Origin: a virus
DNA: 53,542 nt
Virus record (IMG/VR): IMGVR_UViG_3300010354_000121
Coordinates: 1 to 53,542 of that record
Reading direction: 5' to 3' (one strand)
Shown here: one piece after another, positions 2 to 23,764 of the stretch
Layout of the letters: every line of letters starts with the position of its first letter
Position numbering within the stretch: position 1 is the first letter of the stretch
Made by a program: the position numbers and the translations under genes
Notes under the pieces: model-generated
Seen by the model: only the letters and a program-made list of their open reading frames with translations
Database searches by the model: none
What the model was told of the DNA's origin: nothing

Positions 2-2401
2 ATCCCTATATCATCTAAAATTGGGGCTATACAGAAAGTCAAGAAATTAGATATTGGTTTTGATTATAATATTGATTATACCATAAGACCAAAAATAAAT
101 GCTCTTAAAATTGCAAAAGTGGAAGTATTTTATCAATTAGATTATATTGATGTTATTTCTAGAGGAGTAAATTATACATTTAGTCCAAACATAATATTAA
201 TTGATTCAAACACCAGAGAAAAATATGATGTAGATTTAATTTATCAATCAGAAGAGAATAAAGTTGTTATTTTTAAAAATACTACGAAAATTAAAAATAA
301 TGATTTAGAAGTTATTGCTACAAATAATGATAATGGATTTGAGATTAATACCTTAACATATAATCCAACCACAAGAAGAGTAACAGTTGAGTTAGCAACT
401 CCTTTCAATAATATTTCTGAATATCCTTTTAGTGTTGGAGAATCTGTTTACATTGAAAATACCATAGTTGGGGTTTCTTCAAGGGGATATAATTCTAGTG
501 CATATGGATATAATTCTTTTGAGATACTTGAATCAACTCCAAATATTGGTGGAATTGGGGCAACATTTACCTATAGCCTAGAAGATTATCTCGATGTTGG
601 TGAAGACCCAGGAGCATTAGATAATTTTTATACTTCAGGTTTTGCAATAGCCAAAAAATATTTACCAGAATTTTCTATTAAAATTGAGCCGAATCAATTC
701 TCGGTAGGAGAGGATTTTGAGTCAAATAGCGGAACCTTTGGTAAAATAGTTTCATGGACTCCAGAAAATAATACTGTTAGATTATCGACCACAGGGAAGA
801 TTAACAACAATGATATTATTTTTGGTAAAAATAGTGGAGCCTATTTAAAGGTAATCGATGTTTACTCTACAAATGGTTATATTGATATTTCCTCGAATTC
901 AGTTGTTGAAAGGGGTTGGAGAGATAAAACAGGTTTCTTAAATGATTCACTTCAAAGGATTCATGATAATAATTATTATCAATATTTTTCTTATGATTTA
1001 AAATCTGAAATTGATTATTCTAATTGGTCTGATCTAGTTGATTCTTTGAATCACACTGCCGGATTTAAGAAATTCGGAACTTTATTAGTCAATACAACCA
1101 ATGAAAATGTAGGCATTGGTACCGATCAAAATCTAGGTGATGTTGAAATAATAAATGATTTATATTCAGTCTTAGACGTTAATTGTGTAAGCGATTTTGA
1201 TCTTGTTACTGAAAATTATTTCTCAATTGATAGTGAATTAAGATCTAATGAAATCTATTTTAATTCCAGAAGACTACAGGATTACATTGAATCTATTGGC
1301 AATAAAGTATTGATTATAGATGATATCGCTAATAGATTTACTCCAGTTGCTCCAATAGAAAACTCTATAATTGATAAATTTAAACTTAACGCAATAAGAT
1401 TTAAAAAATATGTTATTCAGGTAACTGATAAGTTAGAACCAGAAAATACTCATTCTCAAATAATTAATTTGCTTCACGATAATAATGAAGTCTCGATTAA
1501 TCAATTTTCAGTGATAGAAACTATTGATGAGTTGGGTTATTTTGATGCGGAAAGGAAAAATTTTGATATAAATTTATTATTTTATCCATTTGAGACATCA
1601 AATAAAATATATTCAGTCAACAGTTTTTCCTTTAATATTAGTGATAGTGATGATAATATTGGAAATACTCAACTTGGTAATACTATAGATATAAACTCTA
1701 GTTTTGTAACTGGAATAGGGACCACAACTATTTGTTCAATTTCAACCGATAAATCGGCCGCAAAAGTAATACTTGTATTTTCCGATAAACAAAATGGTAA
1801 TTTTTATTCAGATGAAATAAATTACATTCATAATGGAAGTTCTATTGTTTATAATTCTTATGGTGAATTGAACATGGGAAATACCGTTGGCATAGGAACA
1901 TATAATTTATATTATTCGGATGGAAACATAAATATTGATTTAACCCCATTTGAACAAAATGACTTTGTAGTAAATTCAATTGCAGTAGAATTTGATAAAA
2001 CTGCAACCACGGTTGATTCCCTATTTTTAAGTGGTAATTTATTGGAATCCTCTTATGTTGGGATAGCAACAACAGGAACCCCCTCAAAATCACTAATTTA
2101 TTCCCATAATATTGACTATACTTCTGGTCTTCATCATTTAGTAATAACTGATACTGATAATAATATAATCAATTCAGTAGAAATTTTAGGTATATTAAAT
2201 ATTACAAACCAGGATGTTTATTCTGTAAAATTTGGTAATTTGAGTACAGGAAGTGAATTAGGTGAAATTGATGTTGAATACTCAAATGTTGACGGTAGTT
2301 TTGAGATTTATTTTACTCCAAATAACGATATTAATTATGAGGTAAAAATTTTTAGTACATTAATTTCAAAATTCAGGAGATCTGAAACAGTAGAGTTATG
2401 A
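2..2401 (+). CDS. Large virion structural protein, upstream half of a split gene; 5' end outside the window
   Basis: The frame is open from base 2, so the true start lies to the left; the GTG at 119 is only an internal codon. The product resembles long baseplate/tail-fibre-like structural proteins of T4-like cyanophages, from memory of that family. The last ~335 codons (from the IRFKKY motif near 1397) are three tandem beta-rich repeats of about 80-110 residues, each with a KKY/AKV start, an LLH or NYI centre and an FxP end. The same block recurs at the end of the gene starting at 15977. The gene ends in ATGA, overlapping the next ORF by 4 nt in the -1 frame. In related phages the two ORFs appear to be one continuous protein, so this is probably one polypeptide chain made in two parts. 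No enzymatic motif is visible. Function as virion component is inferred from position before gp8. Confidence 0.7.
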   Translation: MPISSKIGAIQKVKKLDIGFDYNIDYTIRPKINALKIAKVEVFYQLDYIDVISRGVNYTFSPNIILIDSNTREKYDVDLIYQSEENKVVIFKNTTKIKNNDLEVIATNNDNGFEINTLTYNPTTRRVTVELATPFNNISEYPFSVGESVYIENTIVGVSSRGYNSSAYGYNSFEILESTPNIGGIGATFTYSLEDYLDVGEDPGALDNFYTSGFAIAKKYLPEFSIKIEPNQFSVGEDFESNSGTFGKIVSWTPENNTVRLSTTGKINNNDIIFGKNSGAYLKVIDVYSTNGYIDISSNSVVERGWRDKTGFLNDSLQRIHDNNYYQYFSYDLKSEIDYSNWSDLVDSLNHTAGFKKFGTLLVNTTNENVGIGTDQNLGDVEIINDLYSVLDVNCVSDFDLVTENYFSIDSELRSNEIYFNSRRLQDYIESIGNKVLIIDDIANRFTPVAPIENSIIDKFKLNAIRFKKYVIQVTDKLEPENTHSQIINLLHDNNEVSINQFSVIETIDELGYFDAERKNFDINLLFYPFETSNKIYSVNSFSFNISDSDDNIGNTQLGNTIDINSSFVTGIGTTTICSISTDKSAAKVILVFSDKQNGNFYSDEINYIHNGSSIVYNSYGELNMGNTVGIGTYNLYYSDGNINIDLTPFEQNDFVVNSIAVEFDKTATTVDSLFLSGNLLESSYVGIATTGTPSKSLIYSHNIDYTSGLHHLVITDTDNNIINSVEILGILNITNQDVYSVKFGNLSTGSELGEIDVEYSNVDGSFEIYFTPNNDINYEVKIFSTLISKFRRSETVEL

Positions 2402-2436
2402 GCAATATTTCTTTTTCAAGCGGATACGGAGAATAT
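1397..2436 (+). repeat. Diverged duplicate module, copy 1 (three beta-rich repeats plus ATGA restart)
   Basis: This stretch encodes about 334 codons from IRFKKY to a stop, then the ATGA restart and the peptide MSNISFSSGYGEY. It matches, by eye along its whole length, the segment 16823-17865 (IRFKKY ... stop, then MSNISFSSNYAEY). Shared landmarks in order are IRFKKY, LL.L.H, a Y.SFSF motif, SAAKV, EINYI, GIGTY, ES.YVG, LIYS, SGLH, and FTP near the end. Identity is moderate, so the copying is old and not an assembly artefact. Confidence 0.8.
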
Positions 2437-5400
2437 ACAAGTGGTGAATTTTTTAAATCCGCCGCATTTGAAATAACCTCTAATGGATTTTTTATTTTTT
2501 CTAGGGAATTTCTATCAAATTCACCTAAATTTGTTAATTTAAGTGAAAATTCTTTTGATTTCACTCAACATAGTTTTGTTACTGGTGAGGAATTAGTTTA
2601 TGACTATCCTAAAAATAATATAACAATTCCTATTGGCATTGTAACCACTACAATTTCAGGGGTTTCTACTGATATCCTACCTAAAACTCTTTATGCTGTT
2701 AAACAGGATTTTTCTACACTTAAAGTTGCAGCAACAAAAGCAAATGCTTTATTGCCAGAACCAATAACATTAAATTTAAGGAGTTATGGTAAAGGAACAC
2801 ATAAAATATATTCTAAAAATCCAAATTTAAATTCTTTAATTACAATAAACAATATTATTCAAGAACCAATAGTTTCCACTTCCGTAACTACCTCCACAAC
2901 CCAATCTATTATAACAAGTGATCTTTCTGTTACTGTTGAAAATCCTGATGTATTAACAGGTGGTGATTTTATTCAGGTTAATAATGAGATAATGCGGGTT
3001 TTATCTGTTGGAATTGGGTCTACTAATAATATTTTTATCGAAAGATCCTTGCTTGGAACAGATCCTGGCATCCACGGTCAAAATTCCCTAATCACCAAAG
3101 TTAGAGGAAATTACAATATCATAGAAAATTTTATTCATTTTGTTGTTTCTCCTTATGGTAATAGTTTTGATCCAGAAAGCGGATTGACCAATTCTTCCAC
3201 ATTTAGTGGAAGGGTATTTCTAAGATCCGGAAAAGAAAGTACAACTATTGGCCCCTATGATAATAACTTTATTTTTGATTATATTTCAGAATCTTTTACC
3301 GGCAAAGATTCGACATTCACCTTAAAAAATAAGTCAAATAATGTAGTAGGTATTTCTACTGATAATGCAATTGTAACCATAAATGATGTCTTTCAGCCGC
3401 CATCAAGACTTTCTGGTAATGTTATAAATGGTGCATACACATTATCCGAAAATGTTGGAATTACTTCTATAATTTTTAATGGCAATCCATCTTTTCCTGA
3501 TTATGATGTTAATATTTCAGAATACCCAAGAGGAGGAATTATTCTTTCTGTTGGATCCACCGAAGGTTTTGGTTATCAGCCATTGATTTCTGCCGGCGGA
3601 ACCGCAATTGTATCGACTGCCGGAACTATTCAATCAATATCCATTGGCTATAGTGGATCTGGTTATAGATCAGGAATTCAGACTGTTAATGTTGGTGTCG
3701 GTTATAGCGATGTTGTTGGCTTTGACCTAGAAAAAATTGGTACAGCATCAATATCAAATGGTATTATTGTTGGAGTTAGCATAACAAATCCTGGTTCTGG
3801 ATATACAAATACAAATCCACCAAATGTTTATTTTGATGCACCTCTCTCTTATGACAATCTTCCTCTAATTTATTCTAGTGGTTCGTCTGGATTAGGAACA
3901 GGGGCAAAAATTAGCGTTATCGTGGGGCAAGGTTCTAGTGTAATAAATTTTGAACTTACAAATCTAGGTTTTGGTTATGAAAAAGGAGAAATTTTAACTA
4001 TACCCATTGGAGGGACTACTGGAATCCCCACAACTTCTAATTTTAAACAATTTGAAGTTAAAATAGATTCAATTTTCAACGATGATTCTAGTGTCAGGAC
4101 AATAGGTCAACTTATTATTATAGATCCAATTGATTCATTGTTTGACGGGAAAAGGAAATCGTTTCCACTAAGAATAAATGGAGAACAAACGGCAATTTTA
4201 AGCCGAATTGGCTCTGATCTTAATGTAGAAAATAATCTACTAATTTTTATTGATACGGTTCTCCAAGTTCCAACTGAAGCGTATAGTTTTAGGGGCGGAA
4301 GCATTATAACATTTAAAGAGGCTCCTATTAAAGGATCAAAATCAACTATTTTATTCTATGCTGGGACAGAAGGTGTTGATACGAAATTAGTCAATGTTTT
4401 GAAGACGGTTAAAATCGGGGATTACCTACAAATTTTTGATAATACTGATAGGCAAGATGATCAAAACCCAAGATCAGTATCAGATATTTTATCCGTAGAT
4501 ATTGTTAAAACAAATCTATATGATAAACAAGGTATTTCGGATCAAGATGAAATAAGACCTGTAAAATGGTGTCCTCAAAATGTTGATAGATTTGTTATAG
4601 GTTCTGGGTCAACAATTAGTACAATAGTAACAAAAGATCGTGAAATTTATGAATCATTCATTAGGCCATTCGCTTTTGTTATTTCTGGCATTGGAAGTAC
4701 ATCTAGTGAAATATTTGTAGACAATGTAAAAACATTTTTTGATAATGCAAATGAATCTCTTGTCGTTAATAGTATCAATATAATCTCGCAGATACCTCAA
4801 TCACCGGCAAAATTAACTGCAAATGTATCATTGGCCGGAACAATACAATCCATTCAAATTGAGTCTGTTGGTCAAGGATATTTTGAGCCCCCTAAAATCA
4901 GAGTATCAAATCCGGTTGGTCTAGGAACAACTGCAATATTGACATGTTCACTCAATTCTTCTGGTGGAATTTCAACGGTAAATATTATTAATGCCGGGTC
5001 TGGTTACACTGGACCACAACCTTTGGTGATTGTTGAGGAGCCAACACAAATTATAGAATCTGCTTCTGATGTTTCTTATGAAGGTGATTTTGGAATTATT
5101 GTTGGAGTCGGAACAACAACTGTTGGAGCATATTTTGATCTCTTTATTGAAGAAGATTCTTATCTAAGGGACTCTTCAATTAATTCAGTCGGAGCCGCAA
5201 TAACTGGCCCAAGTGGAATCTCAAATAATTATTATTTTTATGTTTCAAATAGTAACGTTGGAAATGGCCTGACTTCCTTGAATATTTCAGATCAACCTAT
5301 TGGCATTGGCACAACATTTATTGACAATGTTTATCAAGTAAATTCATGGAGTATTGTCCAACGAAATATAGTCGGGGTCGGGACGACTTTTGTGAAGAGA

Positions 5401-5598
5401 GTTAATGTTAAAGTAGGAAATAATTCTTCTCTTGTAGGTATTTCGGCTACTGCATATTATGGGGATTATAGTTGGGGTAGAGTTTATAACGTATCAAAAT
5501 CAGGCATTTCTACATTCCAGGCATATGCACCTGGAATTACCACCTCTACTATAATACAAAGAAGTGTTCCTTTAAAATTTGTAAATTATCTCAACTAA
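2398..5598 (+). CDS. Large virion structural protein, downstream half of the split gene
   Basis: This 1066-residue protein starts on the A of ATGA shared with the upstream stop, so translation is probably by termination-reinitiation; only a weak AGGAG lies 18 nt upstream. It begins MSNISFSSGYGEY and then a stretch with a TGEELVY motif that I associate with long cyanophage tail structural proteins. It carries several copies of a short beta motif of the type GSGYxxPPxV (near residues 418, 465, 828 and 867), shared with gp8, the DUF4815 protein and gp14 in this window. A QVNNE...ERSLLGT segment (near residue 190) resembles parts of gp15 and of the DUF4815 protein. No signal peptide or catalytic motif is seen. 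Likely a baseplate or fibre component; exact T4 counterpart uncertain. Confidence 0.7.
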   Translation: MSNISFSSGYGEYTSGEFFKSAAFEITSNGFFIFSREFLSNSPKFVNLSENSFDFTQHSFVTGEELVYDYPKNNITIPIGIVTTTISGVSTDILPKTLYAVKQDFSTLKVAATKANALLPEPITLNLRSYGKGTHKIYSKNPNLNSLITINNIIQEPIVSTSVTTSTTQSIITSDLSVTVENPDVLTGGDFIQVNNEIMRVLSVGIGSTNNIFIERSLLGTDPGIHGQNSLITKVRGNYNIIENFIHFVVSPYGNSFDPESGLTNSSTFSGRVFLRSGKESTTIGPYDNNFIFDYISESFTGKDSTFTLKNKSNNVVGISTDNAIVTINDVFQPPSRLSGNVINGAYTLSENVGITSIIFNGNPSFPDYDVNISEYPRGGIILSVGSTEGFGYQPLISAGGTAIVSTAGTIQSISIGYSGSGYRSGIQTVNVGVGYSDVVGFDLEKIGTASISNGIIVGVSITNPGSGYTNTNPPNVYFDAPLSYDNLPLIYSSGSSGLGTGAKISVIVGQGSSVINFELTNLGFGYEKGEILTIPIGGTTGIPTTSNFKQFEVKIDSIFNDDSSVRTIGQLIIIDPIDSLFDGKRKSFPLRINGEQTAILSRIGSDLNVENNLLIFIDTVLQVPTEAYSFRGGSIITFKEAPIKGSKSTILFYAGTEGVDTKLVNVLKTVKIGDYLQIFDNTDRQDDQNPRSVSDILSVDIVKTNLYDKQGISDQDEIRPVKWCPQNVDRFVIGSGSTISTIVTKDREIYESFIRPFAFVISGIGSTSSEIFVDNVKTFFDNANESLVVNSINIISQIPQSPAKLTANVSLAGTIQSIQIESVGQGYFEPPKIRVSNPVGLGTTAILTCSLNSSGGISTVNIINAGSGYTGPQPLVIVEEPTQIIESASDVSYEGDFGIIVGVGTTTVGAYFDLFIEEDSYLRDSSINSVGAAITGPSGISNNYYFYVSNSNVGNGLTSLNISDQPIGIGTTFIDNVYQVNSWSIVQRNIVGVGTTFVKRVNVKVGNNSSLVGISATAYYGDYSWGRVYNVSKSGISTFQAYAPGITTSTIIQRSVPLKFVNYLN

Positions 5599-15154: not shown

Positions 15155-15973
15155 ATGGCAAAACCCTCCTCAAGGCAAGAACTAGTCGATTACTGCAAAA
15201 GAAAACTTGGCGCTCCGGTCTTAGAAATTAATGTGGCCGATGAGCAGATAGATGATTTGGTTGATGATGCTATTCAACTTTTTCAGGAAAGACATTTTGA
15301 TGGTGTGGCCCAGACATTTTTAAAATATGAAATAACCCAAGAAGATATTGACCGGGCCAGAGGTAGAACCGGAGAAGGCATTTCTTCAAAAGTTGGCATT
15401 GCAAAAACATATACTTATCAAGAAAATTCTAATTATATTGAAATTCCGGATCATGTGATCGGAATTAATAAAATTTTTAAATTATTTGGTGGTAATAGTC
15501 TTGGTTATGGTATGTTCAATTTTAAGTATCAACTACTACTAAATGATCTTTATTATTGGGGTTCTACGGACATTCTAACTTATTTTACTGTAAAGCGTTA
15601 TCTTGAGGATCTTGACTGGATTTTAAGTCCGGATATTATGGTGAGGTTTAATAAAAGAGACACTAAACTTTATATTGATATTGATTGGGCAACCGTTTCT
15701 CCTGGTAATATCCTTCTTATTGATTGTTATAGGGCCCTTGATCCAACAGATTCAACAAAAGTCTGGAACGATAGTTTTCTTAAACAATATCTAACGGCAC
15801 TTATTAAACGGCAGTGGGGTCAGAATCTTATTAAGTTTAGGGGAGTAAAACTTCCTGGTGGCGTCGAGTTAAATGGTCGGGAAATGTATGATGATGCCCA
15901 AAAAGAAATTGATATGCTTATGGAGCGTATGAGTTCCACATATGAGATGCCGACCTTCGACCTTATCGGATAA
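15155..15973 (+). CDS. 13: Neck protein gp13
   Basis: The 272-residue product is recognised as cyanophage-type gp13. It has MAKPSSRQELVDYCKRKLG at the start, ERHFDGV, a DHVIGINK region near residue 105, WGSTDILTYF, and KFRGVKLPGGVELNGREMY near residue 225. gp13 is a neck protein that, with gp14, completes the DNA-filled head so that tails can attach. It is followed 3 nt later by gene 14 and preceded by a possible late promoter. Confidence 0.9.
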   Translation: MAKPSSRQELVDYCKRKLGAPVLEINVADEQIDDLVDDAIQLFQERHFDGVAQTFLKYEITQEDIDRARGRTGEGISSKVGIAKTYTYQENSNYIEIPDHVIGINKIFKLFGGNSLGYGMFNFKYQLLLNDLYYWGSTDILTYFTVKRYLEDLDWILSPDIMVRFNKRDTKLYIDIDWATVSPGNILLIDCYRALDPTDSTKVWNDSFLKQYLTALIKRQWGQNLIKFRGVKLPGGVELNGREMYDDAQKEIDMLMERMSSTYEMPTFDLIG

Positions 15974-15976
15974 TTT

Positions 15977-17830
15977 ATGTTAAATCCATTCTTCCTCAAT
16001 GGATCCACCACAGAACAAAATCTTATAAATGACCTAGTAAAAGAGGCCATTCAAATTCATGGTGTAGATGTTTATTATCTTCCTAGAGAATACGTCACAA
16101 AAAGAACAGTAATAAGAGAAGTAATTGAGTCTAAATTTAGTAATGCCTTTCCTTTAGAGGCATATATCGATACTTATGAAGGGTATGAGGGAGCCGGGGT
16201 CCTTTTAAGTAAATTTGGTATTCAACCAAGTACTGATATTACTCTTATTATTTCAAAAGAAAGATATGAAACACATATTACTCCATTAATCAAAAATATC
16301 CCAAACATAAAACTTTCAGATAGACCGAAAGAAGGCGATCTAATTTGGTTTCCTTTAGGTGATCGTTTGTTTGAAATAAAATTTATTGAACATGAAATTC
16401 CTTTTTATCAATTACAAAAAACCTATGTTTATAATCTAAAATGTGAGTTATTTAGATATCAAGATGAGATTATTGCTACTAATATTGACTTTATTGATGA
16501 TAATACTAAGGATCAGGGTTATACCGAATTTTATAATATGCTTGCAAGGGGCGAACAGGCTTCTGCAATTACAAGTCTTGAAGATTGCGGAGTAAGATAT
16601 GTAACAGTAACAAAAAGAGGAGTATATTCATCTACACCAACTGTCAATTTCCCACAATCTCCGGAAGGTATAACTGCAACTGGAGTTGCAAGAATGATCT
16701 CTGGTATTGTTGATTTATGTGAACCAGATGAATCTAAATTAAGGGTTCAAGCAGTTGATATAATTAATCCCGGTTCTGGGTACTGTGGTGCGGTTATTGA
16801 CTCTTTTGATAAATCTTTAATTAGATTTAAAAAATATTTAATCCACGTTAATAATAATTCAGATCCTAATAAAACACAAAACTTACTTTTAAATTTGATA
16901 CACAATAATGGCGATATTATTGTCAATAATCAATATGGATTAGGCTATTCTCAAGTAAATTTGGGTAATTTTAGTGGCAGAATGGTTGATTCAAGAATAA
17001 ATCTTATTTTTTCGCCATTTGATGTTTCGTCTACTTATTCAATTAATAGTTTTTCTTTTGATATTAATGATTCTGATACAACAGTTGGCAATATTTCTTT
17101 AGGGGATGTAGTAAAAATTAATTCTTCTAATGTTTCTGGTGAAGAAAATAAAACTATAATAAAAATTCCTAATACAAAATCCGCAGCAAAAGTTTTAATT
17201 GTTTATTCGGATTTAATTAACAATAAATTTTATTCCGAAGAAATAAATTATATACAAGATGGGGTTGATATATTATATAATACATATGGAAGTTTAGATA
17301 TAAATAAACCATCTGGAATAGGGACTTATGCATTAACATATGATGGTCCTGATATTAATATTGAATTTTATCCAGACGAGAATACTGAATTTAATATAAA
17401 TGTTCTTTCTATTGAAATATCAGATTTATCTGCCACCTCGACAGGCACTTTGATTTTAAGTGGTAGTAGAATAGAATCTACTTATGTTGGAGTTAATTCC
17501 TCTGGCTCACCCCAAAAAACTCTAATTTATTCATATAATAATAATTTTAATTCTGGTTTACATCAAATATTAATTGAAACTGAAAGTAATAATAATATAA
17601 ATTATTCAGAGGTTTTAACCCTATTAAATAGTTCAAATAAATCTGTAAATTCAGTAGAATTTGGCAAGTTAAATCTTCGTGGTGAAATTGGCATAATAGA
17701 AACTGAGTATTTACCTTCAACTAATACATTAGAAATGTATTTTACCCCATATCAAGATATAGATTATCAGGTAAGAATATGTAGTATTTTGACTTCAACC
17801 AATAAAAGGTCAGAAATTTTATCAATATGA
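15977..17830 (+). CDS. 14: Neck protein gp14, N-terminal part fused to a duplicated beta-repeat module
   Basis: Residues 1-~272 are a cyanophage-type gp14: MLNPFFLNGSTTEQNLI, YLPREYVTKRTVIREVIESKF, AYIDTYEGYEGAG, DRPKEGDLIWFPLGDRLFEI, YVYNLKCELFRYQDE and an INPGSGYCGA beta motif. From about residue 275 to 617 the sequence switches to the module also found at 1397-2436, with three ~80-110-residue repeats. It ends in ATGA, where the next ORF restarts. The gp14 homology resumes in that next ORF. Normal gp14 in this phage group is one protein of roughly 300-400 residues, so this gene is interrupted. Whether the two parts reassemble in the neck is unknown. The fusion seems tolerated because both frames are intact and the module is diverged. 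Confidence 0.85.
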   Translation: MLNPFFLNGSTTEQNLINDLVKEAIQIHGVDVYYLPREYVTKRTVIREVIESKFSNAFPLEAYIDTYEGYEGAGVLLSKFGIQPSTDITLIISKERYETHITPLIKNIPNIKLSDRPKEGDLIWFPLGDRLFEIKFIEHEIPFYQLQKTYVYNLKCELFRYQDEIIATNIDFIDDNTKDQGYTEFYNMLARGEQASAITSLEDCGVRYVTVTKRGVYSSTPTVNFPQSPEGITATGVARMISGIVDLCEPDESKLRVQAVDIINPGSGYCGAVIDSFDKSLIRFKKYLIHVNNNSDPNKTQNLLLNLIHNNGDIIVNNQYGLGYSQVNLGNFSGRMVDSRINLIFSPFDVSSTYSINSFSFDINDSDTTVGNISLGDVVKINSSNVSGEENKTIIKIPNTKSAAKVLIVYSDLINNKFYSEEINYIQDGVDILYNTYGSLDINKPSGIGTYALTYDGPDINIEFYPDENTEFNINVLSIEISDLSATSTGTLILSGSRIESTYVGVNSSGSPQKTLIYSYNNNFNSGLHQILIETESNNNINYSEVLTLLNSSNKSVNSVEFGKLNLRGEIGIIETEYLPSTNTLEMYFTPYQDIDYQVRICSILTSTNKRSEILSI

Positions 17831-17865
17831 GTAATATTTCATTTTCATCTAATTATGCGGAATAT
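16823..17865 (+). repeat. Diverged duplicate module, copy 2 (inserted in gene 14)
   Basis: About 335 codons from IRFKKY to the stop, then ATGA and MSNISFSSNYAEY. It is the counterpart of 1397-2436, of nearly equal length and with the same stop/start overlap. The flanks on both sides belong to gp14, so this copy is the insert. Confidence 0.8.
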
Positions 17866-18465
17866 AATGATTATTCTAAGTTCTCTATTTCTTTTACTGG
17901 AGGAGATGGTTCTGGGGCAGAAGCTTTTCCTACAATAGGTGAAGGAATTATTGGAATAATAACAGTAACTAATGGTGGTTCTGGTTATTTATCGCCCCCA
18001 GAAATTTCTTTTGTTGGAGTTGCAGAATCATCAGCAAAAGCAGTATCTGTTATTTCTAATGGTTCGGTTTCTCAAATAAGAATTTTAGATGCTGGTTCTG
18101 GATATACAGAAGTTCCTCAAATAGTTATAGGTGCTCCTTATGTTTCTGGATTTGGTACATATATTTTTAATGAAGAGGTTGTAGGTAGTGCCTCTAGTAT
18201 GACTGCCAGAGTAAAAGACTGGAACACACAGACGCTAATACTACAGCTATCTAATATCTCTGGACCATTTATTCCAGGTGAATTAATTATTGGTCAGCAA
18301 TCTGGGGCTAGTTATCAGATTATTTCTGGAAATCGATTAACAACAATTGACGAGAAAATTGAAGACAGTATTGTTACTAATGGGTTTACTCAAAATGATG
18401 ATATTCAGATAGCTGCCAATGAAATACTTGACTTTAGTGAAAGAAACCCATTTGGAGTACCATAA
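17827..18465 (+). CDS. 14: Neck protein gp14, C-terminal part translated from an ATGA restart
   Basis: This 212-residue ORF begins MSNISFSSNYAEY, which belongs to the inserted module, and from about residue 24 (SISFTGGDGSG) continues gp14. Typical gp14 features follow: TVTNGGSGYLSPPEISF, DAGSGYTEVPQIVIG, GTYIFNEEVVGSASSMTARV, GPFIPGELIIGQQSGA and the C-terminal end DFSERNPFGVP. The start overlaps the stop of the upstream ORF by 4 nt in the -1 frame, so coupled reinitiation is the simplest route. No clear -1 slippery heptamer was found before the overlap. The end overlaps the gp15 start (TAATG). Confidence 0.8.
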   Translation: MSNISFSSNYAEYNDYSKFSISFTGGDGSGAEAFPTIGEGIIGIITVTNGGSGYLSPPEISFVGVAESSAKAVSVISNGSVSQIRILDAGSGYTEVPQIVIGAPYVSGFGTYIFNEEVVGSASSMTARVKDWNTQTLILQLSNISGPFIPGELIIGQQSGASYQIISGNRLTTIDEKIEDSIVTNGFTQNDDIQIAANEILDFSERNPFGVP

Positions 18466-19466
18466 TGTTTGAACATTTTTATTACGAGGCAATTAGAAAA
18501 ACTGTTATTGCCTTTGGAACACTTTTTAACAACATTTATATTAAACATAAAAATGATGAAGGAAACGTTGTATCAACCCAAAAGGTTCCTTTTGCCTATG
18601 GTCCTACTCAAAAATTCTTAGCCAGACTAGAACAATCACCTGATTTGAATAAACCAATTCAAATCACGACTCCTAGAATGTCCATGGAGATTATTGGACT
18701 TTCTTATGACTCTTCAAGAAAAGGCGGGACTATGAGAGCCTTTACTGCCACTGATGACAACAATAAACCAAGGAAGTCATACTTACCTGTTCCGTACAAC
18801 ATTAATTTTGAACTGAGTATTTTTACTAAGTTAGAGGATGATATGTTCCAAATAGTGGAACAAATTCTTCCTTATTTCCAGCCACATTATACAATAACTA
18901 TAACTCTTATTGAAGAAATTAATGAAAAAAGAGACATAAAATTTACTCTGGATAATGTTTCATTAAGCGATAATTATGAAGGAAATTTTGAACAAAGAAG
19001 AGCACTTATTTGGACATTAAAGTTTACGGCAAAAACTTATATGTTCTTACCAATTTCTGGGGCTTCTATTGAAAATAGTATTATCAACAAGGTCACTCTT
19101 GGGTTTGCGGCCGGGGAAAATTCAAATACCATAAACAACGATATTGACATCACTGTTACTCCAAAAGCGGCCAAAAATTATACTGGCACTGTTGTAACAA
19201 CTGTTAAACAAGATGCTAAGGCCGATGAAAAATTAATCTATGTCAATGACGCATCTAGTTTGTCACCTCAAAGCCTAATCCAAATTAATAACGAGACTCT
19301 TTATATTGAAACAGTAAATACTGATTCAATCAAGGTAATTAGAGGGATTTATGAAACTCAGGCCCAGTTACATGTTTCTGGTTCTGATGTATTAAATATA
19401 ACTACAGTGGATAATAATTTAATTCCACCAAATGATTTATTTGGTTTCATAAGTACATTTACATAA
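18465..19466 (+). CDS. 15: Tail completion and sheath stabiliser gp15
   Basis: The 333-residue product has the gp15 signature of cyanophages: MFEHFYYEAIRKTV, FGTLFNNIYIKHKND, PFAYGPTQKFLARLEQ, PRMSMEIIGLSYD, LPVPYNINFELSIFTKLEDD, QIVEQILPYFQP, DNYEGNFEQRRALIWTLKFTAKTY. gp15 caps the tail tube and sheath and joins tail to head. The last ~110 residues form an extra domain with LIQINNETLYIETVN and RGIYETQAQLH, which resembles segments in the large structural ORFs at 2398 and 7204. The start shares one base with the gp14 stop. Confidence 0.9.
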   Translation: MFEHFYYEAIRKTVIAFGTLFNNIYIKHKNDEGNVVSTQKVPFAYGPTQKFLARLEQSPDLNKPIQITTPRMSMEIIGLSYDSSRKGGTMRAFTATDDNNKPRKSYLPVPYNINFELSIFTKLEDDMFQIVEQILPYFQPHYTITITLIEEINEKRDIKFTLDNVSLSDNYEGNFEQRRALIWTLKFTAKTYMFLPISGASIENSIINKVTLGFAAGENSNTINNDIDITVTPKAAKNYTGTVVTTVKQDAKADEKLIYVNDASSLSPQSLIQINNETLYIETVNTDSIKVIRGIYETQAQLHVSGSDVLNITTVDNNLIPPNDLFGFISTFT

Positions 19467-21673: not shown

Positions 21674-23764
21674 ATGTCTGATACAAATCATTACATGGGA
21701 AATCCGTTATTGAAACGGGCAAATATTCCCAGTGAATTTACACAAGAGCAATTAGTAGAATTAGCAAAATGTGCGGCTGATCCCGTGTATTTTGCTAAAA
21801 ATTATATTAAAATTGTTAACATCGATGATGGCCTTGTATCATTTGATATGTGGCCTTTTCAAGAAAAGATGCTTACTACTTTTCATGAAAATAGATTTAG
21901 TATTTGTAAACTTCCCCGTCAGCCGCTAGAAGATAATACCCCAATCCCGACTCCTAGTGGTTATAAAAAAATTAAAGATCTAAAAATAAATGACATTGTT
22001 TATGATTTATATGGAAAGAAAACAAAAGTCATAAACAAAGTAAGTTATAAAAATACCGAAAAATGTTATAAACTTTCTTTTAAAGGAAAAATATTTGAAG
22101 AAAAAATTTTTTGTGATAAGGATCACTTCTGGAGAGTATATTTTGACAATACTTGCCAAGTATTGACTACAGAGCAAATTTATAATTTAAAAAAAGAAAT
22201 TTTCTTAAAAAGACAATCGTTTAATACATTAGTTGATAATTGGGGCGAAGTAATAAAATTAGTATCAATAGAAGAAATTGAGCCCGTAAATGTTTCGTGT
22301 GTTGAAATAGAAAATAAGGACCATTCTTTTTTATGTGGTAAGAATTTTATACCCACGATGAACTGCGGAAAAAGCACCACGGCGGTATCATTCCTTCTAC
22401 ACTACGCAATTTTCAATGATAATGTCTCTATTGCTATTCTTGCAAACAAGGCATCAACAGCAAAAGATCTACTAGGAAGACTACAAGTATCTTTTGAAAA
22501 CCTTCCTAACTGGATGCAACAAGGTATTAAATCATGGAATAAAACGTCATTAGAACTTGAAAATGGATCAAAAATTATAACCGCATCAACTTCAGCATCT
22601 TCTGTTCGGGGGGGTTCTTATAATGTTATCTTCTTGGACGAATTTGCGTTCGTACCAAATAATGTGGCATTGAATTTTATGAATTCGGTTTATCCCACTA
22701 TTTCTTCTGGTAAAGACTCAAAAGTTATAGTTGTATCAACCCCAAATTCGCTTAATCATTTCTATAAAATGTGGGATGATGCTATAAAAAAAGAAAATGA
22801 TTATGTTCCACTAGAAATTAACTGGAATGACGTTCCTGGAAGAGACGAAGAATGGAGAAAGAAAACTATTGCAAACCTAGGCTCTGAGAAAGCCTTCGAC
22901 CAGGAATTCAACTGTTCTTTCCTCGGATCATCAGACACTTTAATTTCTGGAGCAAAACTCCAAACAATGGTACATAATAAACCAATAAAATCTAAAAAAT
23001 TTCTTGATACTTATGAAGAGCCAATAGAAGAACATCAATACATGATAACCGTTGACGTTGCAAGAGGCGTTGATCTTGACTATTCGGCATTTACTGTTAT
23101 TGACATAACCAAAATGCCTTATAAAATGGTAGCAAAATACCGGGACAACACAATCAAACCGATTATGTTCCCCTATATTGTCAAAGATGTTGGGCTCCAT
23201 TATAATAAGGCCTTTGTTTTATGTGAGACAAATGACGTTGGAGATCAGGTTGCCAATGCCCTTCATTATGACCTCCAATACCCCAATCTACTTACCTGTT
23301 TTATTAAAGGAAGACAGGGGCAAGTTTTAGGTCAGGGTTTTGGTGGAAATCGAGTTGAGTATGGCGTTAAGATGTCTAAAAACGTCAAAAAACTAGGCTC
23401 GATCAACCTAAAAATGTTAATCGAAGAAGATAAACTATTAATCAATGATTACGACACGATTAATGAATTATCGACATTTATTCAAAAATCTAATTCTTTT
23501 ATGGCCGAGGAAGGCAAAAATGATGACCTTGTTGCTTGTTTGATCCTATTTGCCTGGGCCTCAACAAACGAGTACTTCAAAGAAATCACCGATGATGATA
23601 TTAGAAAAAGACTATTCCAAGAAAAACAGGCCAATGAAGAGAACGATATGCTCCCAATTGGGTTCTTAGAAAACGGTCTACAAGAAGAAACATTTGTAGA
23701 AGAAGATAAACTTTGGCATGTTGTTTCTAATGAAGAACTAGCCACCCTTTGGAATTTCTATTAA
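21674..23764 (+). CDS. 17: Large terminase subunit gp17 with an in-frame intein
   Basis: The protein is 696 residues; without the intein (residues 84-230) it is 549, the usual size for cyanophage gp17. It is the ATP-driven packaging motor and headful nuclease. The P-loop reads LPRQ (80-83), then intein, then CGKST (231-235). Walker B is VIFLDEF with D322/E323. The nuclease domain begins with TVDVARG (D461) and is followed by a LCETNDVGDQ motif. The intein must be spliced out for ATPase activity because it splits the P-loop. Only a weak ribosome site precedes the ATG. The leader holds one arm of a long inverted repeat. Confidence 0.95.
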   Translation: MSDTNHYMGNPLLKRANIPSEFTQEQLVELAKCAADPVYFAKNYIKIVNIDDGLVSFDMWPFQEKMLTTFHENRFSICKLPRQPLEDNTPIPTPSGYKKIKDLKINDIVYDLYGKKTKVINKVSYKNTEKCYKLSFKGKIFEEKIFCDKDHFWRVYFDNTCQVLTTEQIYNLKKEIFLKRQSFNTLVDNWGEVIKLVSIEEIEPVNVSCVEIENKDHSFLCGKNFIPTMNCGKSTTAVSFLLHYAIFNDNVSIAILANKASTAKDLLGRLQVSFENLPNWMQQGIKSWNKTSLELENGSKIITASTSASSVRGGSYNVIFLDEFAFVPNNVALNFMNSVYPTISSGKDSKVIVVSTPNSLNHFYKMWDDAIKKENDYVPLEINWNDVPGRDEEWRKKTIANLGSEKAFDQEFNCSFLGSSDTLISGAKLQTMVHNKPIKSKKFLDTYEEPIEEHQYMITVDVARGVDLDYSAFTVIDITKMPYKMVAKYRDNTIKPIMFPYIVKDVGLHYNKAFVLCETNDVGDQVANALHYDLQYPNLLTCFIKGRQGQVLGQGFGGNRVEYGVKMSKNVKKLGSINLKMLIEEDKLLINDYDTINELSTFIQKSNSFMAEEGKNDDLVACLILFAWASTNEYFKEITDDDIRKRLFQEKQANEENDMLPIGFLENGLQEETFVEEDKLWHVVSNEELATLWNFY
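21923..22363 (+). mobile_element. Class 3-like mini-intein (147 aa) in the gp17 P-loop
   Basis: The insert runs from P84 (LEDNTPIPTPSGYKKI follows, an intein block A) to N230 before C231. Block B is FCDKDHFW with His68 and Trp70 of the intein. Block F is VSCVEIENKDHSFLCG with Cys126. Block G is NFIPTMN with Thr145 and terminal Asn147. The first residue is Pro, not Cys or Ser, and the Trp/Cys/Thr positions match the WCT triplet that defines class 3 inteins, in which the block F Cys starts splicing. The penultimate residue is Met, not His. The +1 residue is Cys. At 147 residues it has no room for a homing endonuclease. Confidence 0.88.

Follow-up and report, generated by a model that had tools for sequence, protein, structure and literature searches.

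Neck gene 14 of a T4-like cyanophage divided by what appears to be a gp7a/gp7b gene boundary

The window, the whole stretch of DNA analysed here, is a 53.5 kb IMG/VR record from a T4-like cyanophage. Between the genes for gp13 and gp15 it carries gene 14 as two open reading frames, gp14a and gp14b (Table 1). Residues 2-280 of gp14a match the head closure family Hc2 (phrog_460, E 6e-81) and the Pfam family T4_neck-protein (PF11649, 6e-33), and residues 33-211 of gp14b match positions 222-376 of the phrog_460 profile, so that the two frames are collinear parts of one gene. Relatives make gp14 as a single polypeptide, whereas here the gp14a stop codon at 17828-17830 is overlapped by the gp14b start at 17827 in an ATGA tetranucleotide. 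The first 269 residues of gp14a comprise the head-closure core (approximately 1-177) and the first half of the accessory beta domain of cyanophages (178-269); residues 20-212 of gp14b supply the second half of this domain and the conserved C-terminal tail, ILDFSERNPFGVP. An initial annotation had described a gp14 gene interrupted by an inserted module and resumed through an ATGA restart, and the coordinates, the overlap and the resumed homology are all as it claimed.

Table 1. Features of the gene 14 locus and of the gp7 genes in the window
Feature	Position	Strand	Basis
gp13 neck protein, upstream flank	15155..15973	+	phrog_211 head-tail adaptor Ad2; ~97% amino acid identity to L006
gp14a ORF, 617 aa	15977-17830	+	ORF list
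gp14b ORF, 212 aa	17827-18465	+	ORF list
gp14a residues 1-269	15977..16783	+	phrog_460, Pfam, T4 gp14 structures 9mkb/9lu4
Inserted module, gp14a 270-617	16784..17827	+	homology to gp7 C-terminus; AF2; BFVD
ATGA, gp14a stop over gp14b start	17827..17830	+	as at the gp7a/gp7b boundary in the window, in B23 and in IMG/VR contigs
gp14b residues 1-19	17827..17883	+	junction listing against gp7b N-terminus
gp14b residues 20-212	17884..18465	+	phrog_460 profile 222-376; 78% to L006 gp14 276-468
gp15 tail sheath stabiliser, downstream flank	18465..19466	+	Pfam T4-gp15_tss, 4e-82
orfA, gp7a C-terminal part, 5' truncated by contig start	119..2401	+	matches B23 gp257 'baseplate wedge initiator'
orfB, gp7b	2398..5598	+	fused to gp7a in S-SM2, Bellamy, S-B05 and S-SCSM1

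The borders of the interruption could be sharpened. Homology to gp14, originally placed as ending near residue 272 and resuming near residue 24, is last seen at Tyr269 of gp14a (INPGSGY) and returns at Ser20 of gp14b (SISFTGGDGSG). Relatives read through this position as GYTVAPSVSF, and the window gp14 is short of only about four residues (TVAP). The intervening stretch, first put at about 335 foreign codons, consists of 348 non-gp14 codons (gp14a 270-617), the stop and ATG, and 19 codons of gp14b. In a predicted model of the intact gp14 from a close relative, L006, the insertion point is a coil at residues 270-275 between two strands, in a confident part of the model, and the insertion is predicted to sit in a turn of the accessory domain. 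This domain (183-423) is built of beta repeats modelled with high confidence; the gp14 core was modelled with low confidence from a shallow alignment, and only the accessory domain was used. Searching the PDB for folds like this model was uninformative. The split falls in the variable cyanophage accessory domain, outside the conserved gp14 core. In T4 gp14, residues 55-177 form the barrel and gate, 89-112 being the stopper loop, and residues 178-256 touch gp15 once the tail has joined (PMC12270204). By alignment, the split parts the gate core from the tail-contacting end.

Related gp14 genes were gathered by tblastn over phage isolates and a scan of IMG/VR. At least 20 of them, including that of phage B23, encode a single insert-free chain (approximately 457-475 aa in the close relatives), and none holds the domain inside a one-chain gp14, the arrangement that the initial annotation had named as evidence against a split. 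The gp14 insertion is known from one metagenomic contig. L028, at first sight a recombinant gp14, was set aside because it is 99% identical to L015 and its reading frame is disrupted. In S-CAM9 (L109 2992-4965) and S-PRM1 (L111 298-2268) gp14 reaches approximately 657 aa through extra internal beta repeats of the GSGY type. In S-SRM01 an HNH-domain gene lies directly between gp14 and gp15 (L112 3512-4039), showing that endonuclease genes reach the gp14/gp15 spot in a relative.

The origin of the inserted sequence became apparent from the gp7 genes at the start of the window. Residues 272-617 of gp14a are 44% identical over 347 aa (E 9e-86) to residues 416-760 of orfA, the C-terminus of gp7, where the homologous module occupies nucleotides 1364-2398 of the window. 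Both modules are followed by the same ATGA and by a second chain with the same MSNISFSSxYxEY start, and together these correspondences argue that the match is not due to chance. The first 13 or so residues of gp14b (MSNISFSSNYAEY) resemble the gp7b N-terminus (MSNISFSSNYGEY in the IMG/VR contig L041), and the same 4-nt overlap with an MSN[IV]SFS start marks the gp14 junction as well as those within gp7 in the window, in B23 and in IMG/VR contigs. Judged by sequence, the insert is the C-terminal array of gp7, the baseplate wedge initiator, together with the gp7 stop, the overlapping start within ATGA and some 13 codons from the frame that follows; the stop and restart dividing gp14a from gp14b thus appear to have come ready-made with the module. 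The G+C content of the insert (25.6%) is close to that of the gp7 module (27.1%), with 38.6 and 36% in the flanking accessory sequence. What were first described as foreign codons can be assigned to the boundary between gp7a and gp7b in a related phage.

When gp14a was aligned jointly with the gp7 modules, the modules appeared to be superimposed on the gp14 core, and for this reason the module and an intact gp14 were folded separately. The AlphaFold (AF2) model of the module is all-beta (pLDDT 90.9, pTM 0.91), and its strand pattern can be read as three similar tandem beta units. A BFVD search matched it to Bellamy's predicted baseplate wedge initiator, and single units to tail-fibre-like proteins. 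In sequence and fold the module is a gp7 C-terminal module; in location it is not, as this copy lies in gp14 and not between the conserved gp7 pre-module region and gp7b. The best PDB match, T4 gp9 (E 1e-3), gave a TM score of 0.23-0.27, a weak match that we did not take as an identification. An Rfam search of the junction region returned no match. Fission by a homing endonuclease was rejected, since the insert holds no endonuclease gene and gp7 sequence accounts for it, and an intein was rejected since the insert consists of gp7 domains with a stop and start and matched no intein family.

Elsewhere in the window, the terminase large subunit (21674-23764) does contain an intein-like insert, within its Walker A motif (KLPRQ/PLEDNTPIPTPSGYKKI...FIPTMN/CGKST). 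It apparently begins with proline and has a cysteine in a block F-like region, features that we take to resemble class 3 inteins. The same insert begins in L006, L009, L015 and L018, and B23 has a larger, different one nearby.

The split of gp7 itself is shared by a clade that includes this phage. The B23 annotation lists the corresponding pair as separate gp7 (baseplate wedge initiator) genes with a 4-nt overlap, whereas in S-SM2, Bellamy, S-B05 and S-SCSM1 the gp7a and gp7b regions form one gene of approximately 12 kb encoding a chain of about 4000 aa. A module-profile scan of IMG/VR, in which records very near the window may be absent, yielded 57 contigs: gp7 is split at this position in 12, forms one chain in 44 and is truncated in one. 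The module lay within gp7 in all 56 contigs with a readable gp7b context, and within gp14 in none of the 57. Scanning viral contigs with the insert sequence alone gave no confirmed match; an alignment profile was needed. A search for the restart DNA pattern recovered 14 contigs, all of which had also been found as split gp7 junction contigs in earlier scans. The split arrangement (as at 119-5598 in the window, with ATGA) is thus found in the window, B23 and 14 IMG/VR contigs, and the 44 unbroken contigs are more distant. B23, L006/L040 and L010/L046 combine a split gp7 with an intact gp14. Taken most simply, the contig counts and the restart-pattern result suggest that the gp7 split is a derived feature of one clade and that the insert in gp14 is an ectopic copy of the gp7 split boundary. 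We found no papers on split gp7 in cyanophages.

Which phage supplied the segment can be approached from the module tree. The gp14 copy groups with the gp7 modules of L041 and L044 (62 and 60% amino acid identity, support 99/98); its identity to the module in the window's gp7 is 45%, and that module falls with L037, placements that point to acquisition from a related phage and not to a fresh internal duplication. The surrounding sequence carries a second signal. The gp13, gp14 core and gp15 proteins of the window are approximately 97% identical to those of L006, and the gp14 core tree pairs the two with support of 99/97. In the accessory domain, to the left and right of the insert, identity to L006 falls to 50-67%, with synonymous change raised too, and the pairing with L006 is rejected by the accessory DNA (p-AU 0.001) and protein (0.024). 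The accessory domain, with the module inside it, probably arrived by recombination; fast evolution after the insertion is a possible alternative source of the divergence. The marked contrast between this domain (16508-16783 and 17884-18138) and its flanks also points to cassette-like replacement.

We propose that gene 14 underwent fission by acquiring a segment of approximately 1.1 kb from a related phage, in which it straddled the gp7a/gp7b boundary, and we give the complete reading, with two coupled chains, associating halves and a free array, a probability of about 0.68. The segment would have carried the three-domain C-terminal array of gp7a, the stop with its overlapping ATG and some 13 codons from the start of gp7b, and would have entered a turn of the accessory beta-repeat domain with the reading frame preserved on either side. 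The resulting gp14a would consist of the core gate and half the accessory domain, ending in the array, and gp14b, started by termination-reinitiation at the ATGA, would provide the other accessory half and the C-terminal tail that in T4 contacts gp15. ATGA overlaps are the commonest layout for coupled termination-reinitiation and are enriched in pairs encoding subunits of a complex (PMC10666635). Such overlaps occur in six ORF pairs of the window; inspection of the sequence before the gp14 ATGA found no Shine-Dalgarno motif at optimal distance. The neck protein is probably made as two chains, the first with a three-domain tail. Contact between the chains would most likely be made by the accessory beta domain, reassembling gp14 and leaving the array as a free C-terminal tail hanging on, and displayed by, the neck. 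We infer that a split of this kind is tolerated more easily than a continuous insertion, because the ends of the array need not be brought together. Any function of the array on the neck can only be guessed at from its baseplate origin.

Estimates of selection bear unevenly on this proposal. On the module branch dN/dS is 0.60 in gp14 (bootstrap 95% 0.35-1.31) versus 0.13 and 0.10 in the gp7 sisters, so constraint on the array in gp14 is unproven. The core, 96.6% identical to L006 (dN/dS 0.034), and residues 37-212 of gp14b (approximately 0.13) look constrained, both values including time before the split. The higher ratio in the module, the divergent accessory domain and the fact that the contig is part of a genome only are what would be expected if the insertion had destroyed gp14, leaving a decaying gene in a defective genome whose function comes from another copy or a helper. 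Against this, the core and gp14b values are low, every frame is open and no second gp14 was found in the contig; we consider such loss unlikely, and rank it as the second threat to the proposed fission.

The main threat is that an assembler joined gp7-junction sequence from another phage into gp14, which we judge about as improbable as loss of function. The insertion is in a single contig and the donor-like gp7 contigs are metagenomic, as an artefact would predict. Two independent false joins would be required, however, leaving and re-entering gp14 within four codons and both in frame, and the 346-codon insert has no stop. No exact word of 16 nt or more spans the left junction in any fetched locus, the longest spanning the right junction is 19 nt (L026), and neither the insert scan nor the module-profile scan found a contig with the required donor sequence. 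Explanations that restore a single chain fare worse. A -1 frameshift at the ATGA would yield one long gp14 with the array, and the gp14b frame is indeed -1 relative to gp14a and open for seven codons upstream, with gp7 fused in some relatives. We regard this as very improbable, given that inspecting the junction sequences of gp14 and gp7 revealed no slippery heptamer, that fused gp7 is a continuous frame in a different clade, and that ATGA restarts are common in the window. Least probable of all is the missing base that the initial annotation had raised, whereby a sequencing error split a naturally fused gp14 and array. Overlapping frames would result from such a loss, but upstream the gp14b frame stays open for just 21 nt, confining the error to that interval, and the same ATGA layout is seen again where gp7a meets gp7b in the window, in B23 and in the split contigs.

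If fission by the gp7a/gp7b segment is correct, a structural gene has been divided without an intron, intein or endonuclease gene, a whole cistron boundary being imported along with a domain. Tracing the insert also revealed that gp7, a baseplate protein of very large size, is split across a whole clade. Should both chains assemble, the break would fall between what in T4 are the gp13-binding genome gate and the gp15-contacting part of gp14, and would offer a natural test of how loose the link between these two functions can be. More tentatively, and with the balance against it, the gp7 array and its coupled stop and restart may constitute a portable 'split-and-append' cassette for structural proteins, acting here on the neck protein. 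Landing in frame, it would append the array to the upstream half and restart the downstream half, adding an array with far-apart ends without closing it into a host loop, and would turn the neck protein into a two-chain protein bearing baseplate-type domains.

Compared with known systems, the window gp14 shares its N-terminal core and conserved C-terminal tail with T4-type gp14 (Hc2; PDB 9mkb, 9lu4). Cyanophage gp14 differs in its additional beta-repeat accessory domain, which in the window is interrupted and the gene split. S-CAM9 and S-PRM1 also have added sequence in this region, but as extra copies of gp14's own repeats within one chain. The closest likeness is to the gp7a/gp7b split of the B23 type, which has the same three-domain module, 4-nt ATGA overlap and MSNISFSS-type start of the second chain; there the junction is native to gp7, whereas the window has it ectopically in gp14 too. 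Among T4-like phages, insertions cut other essential genes into two coding regions, as in nrdA of Aeh1 and gene 43 of phages 25 and 44RR, and the halves of split NrdA (Aeh1) and gp43 (phage 25) can reassemble or work together (PMC2988022). Those cases concern enzymes, mostly split by homing endonuclease genes. In the window, by contrast, the gene is structural, no endonuclease is present and the splitting element is a domain array with its own stop and start; what is new relative to this precedent is that the divided gene is structural, that a domain array divides it and that the stop and restart were imported.
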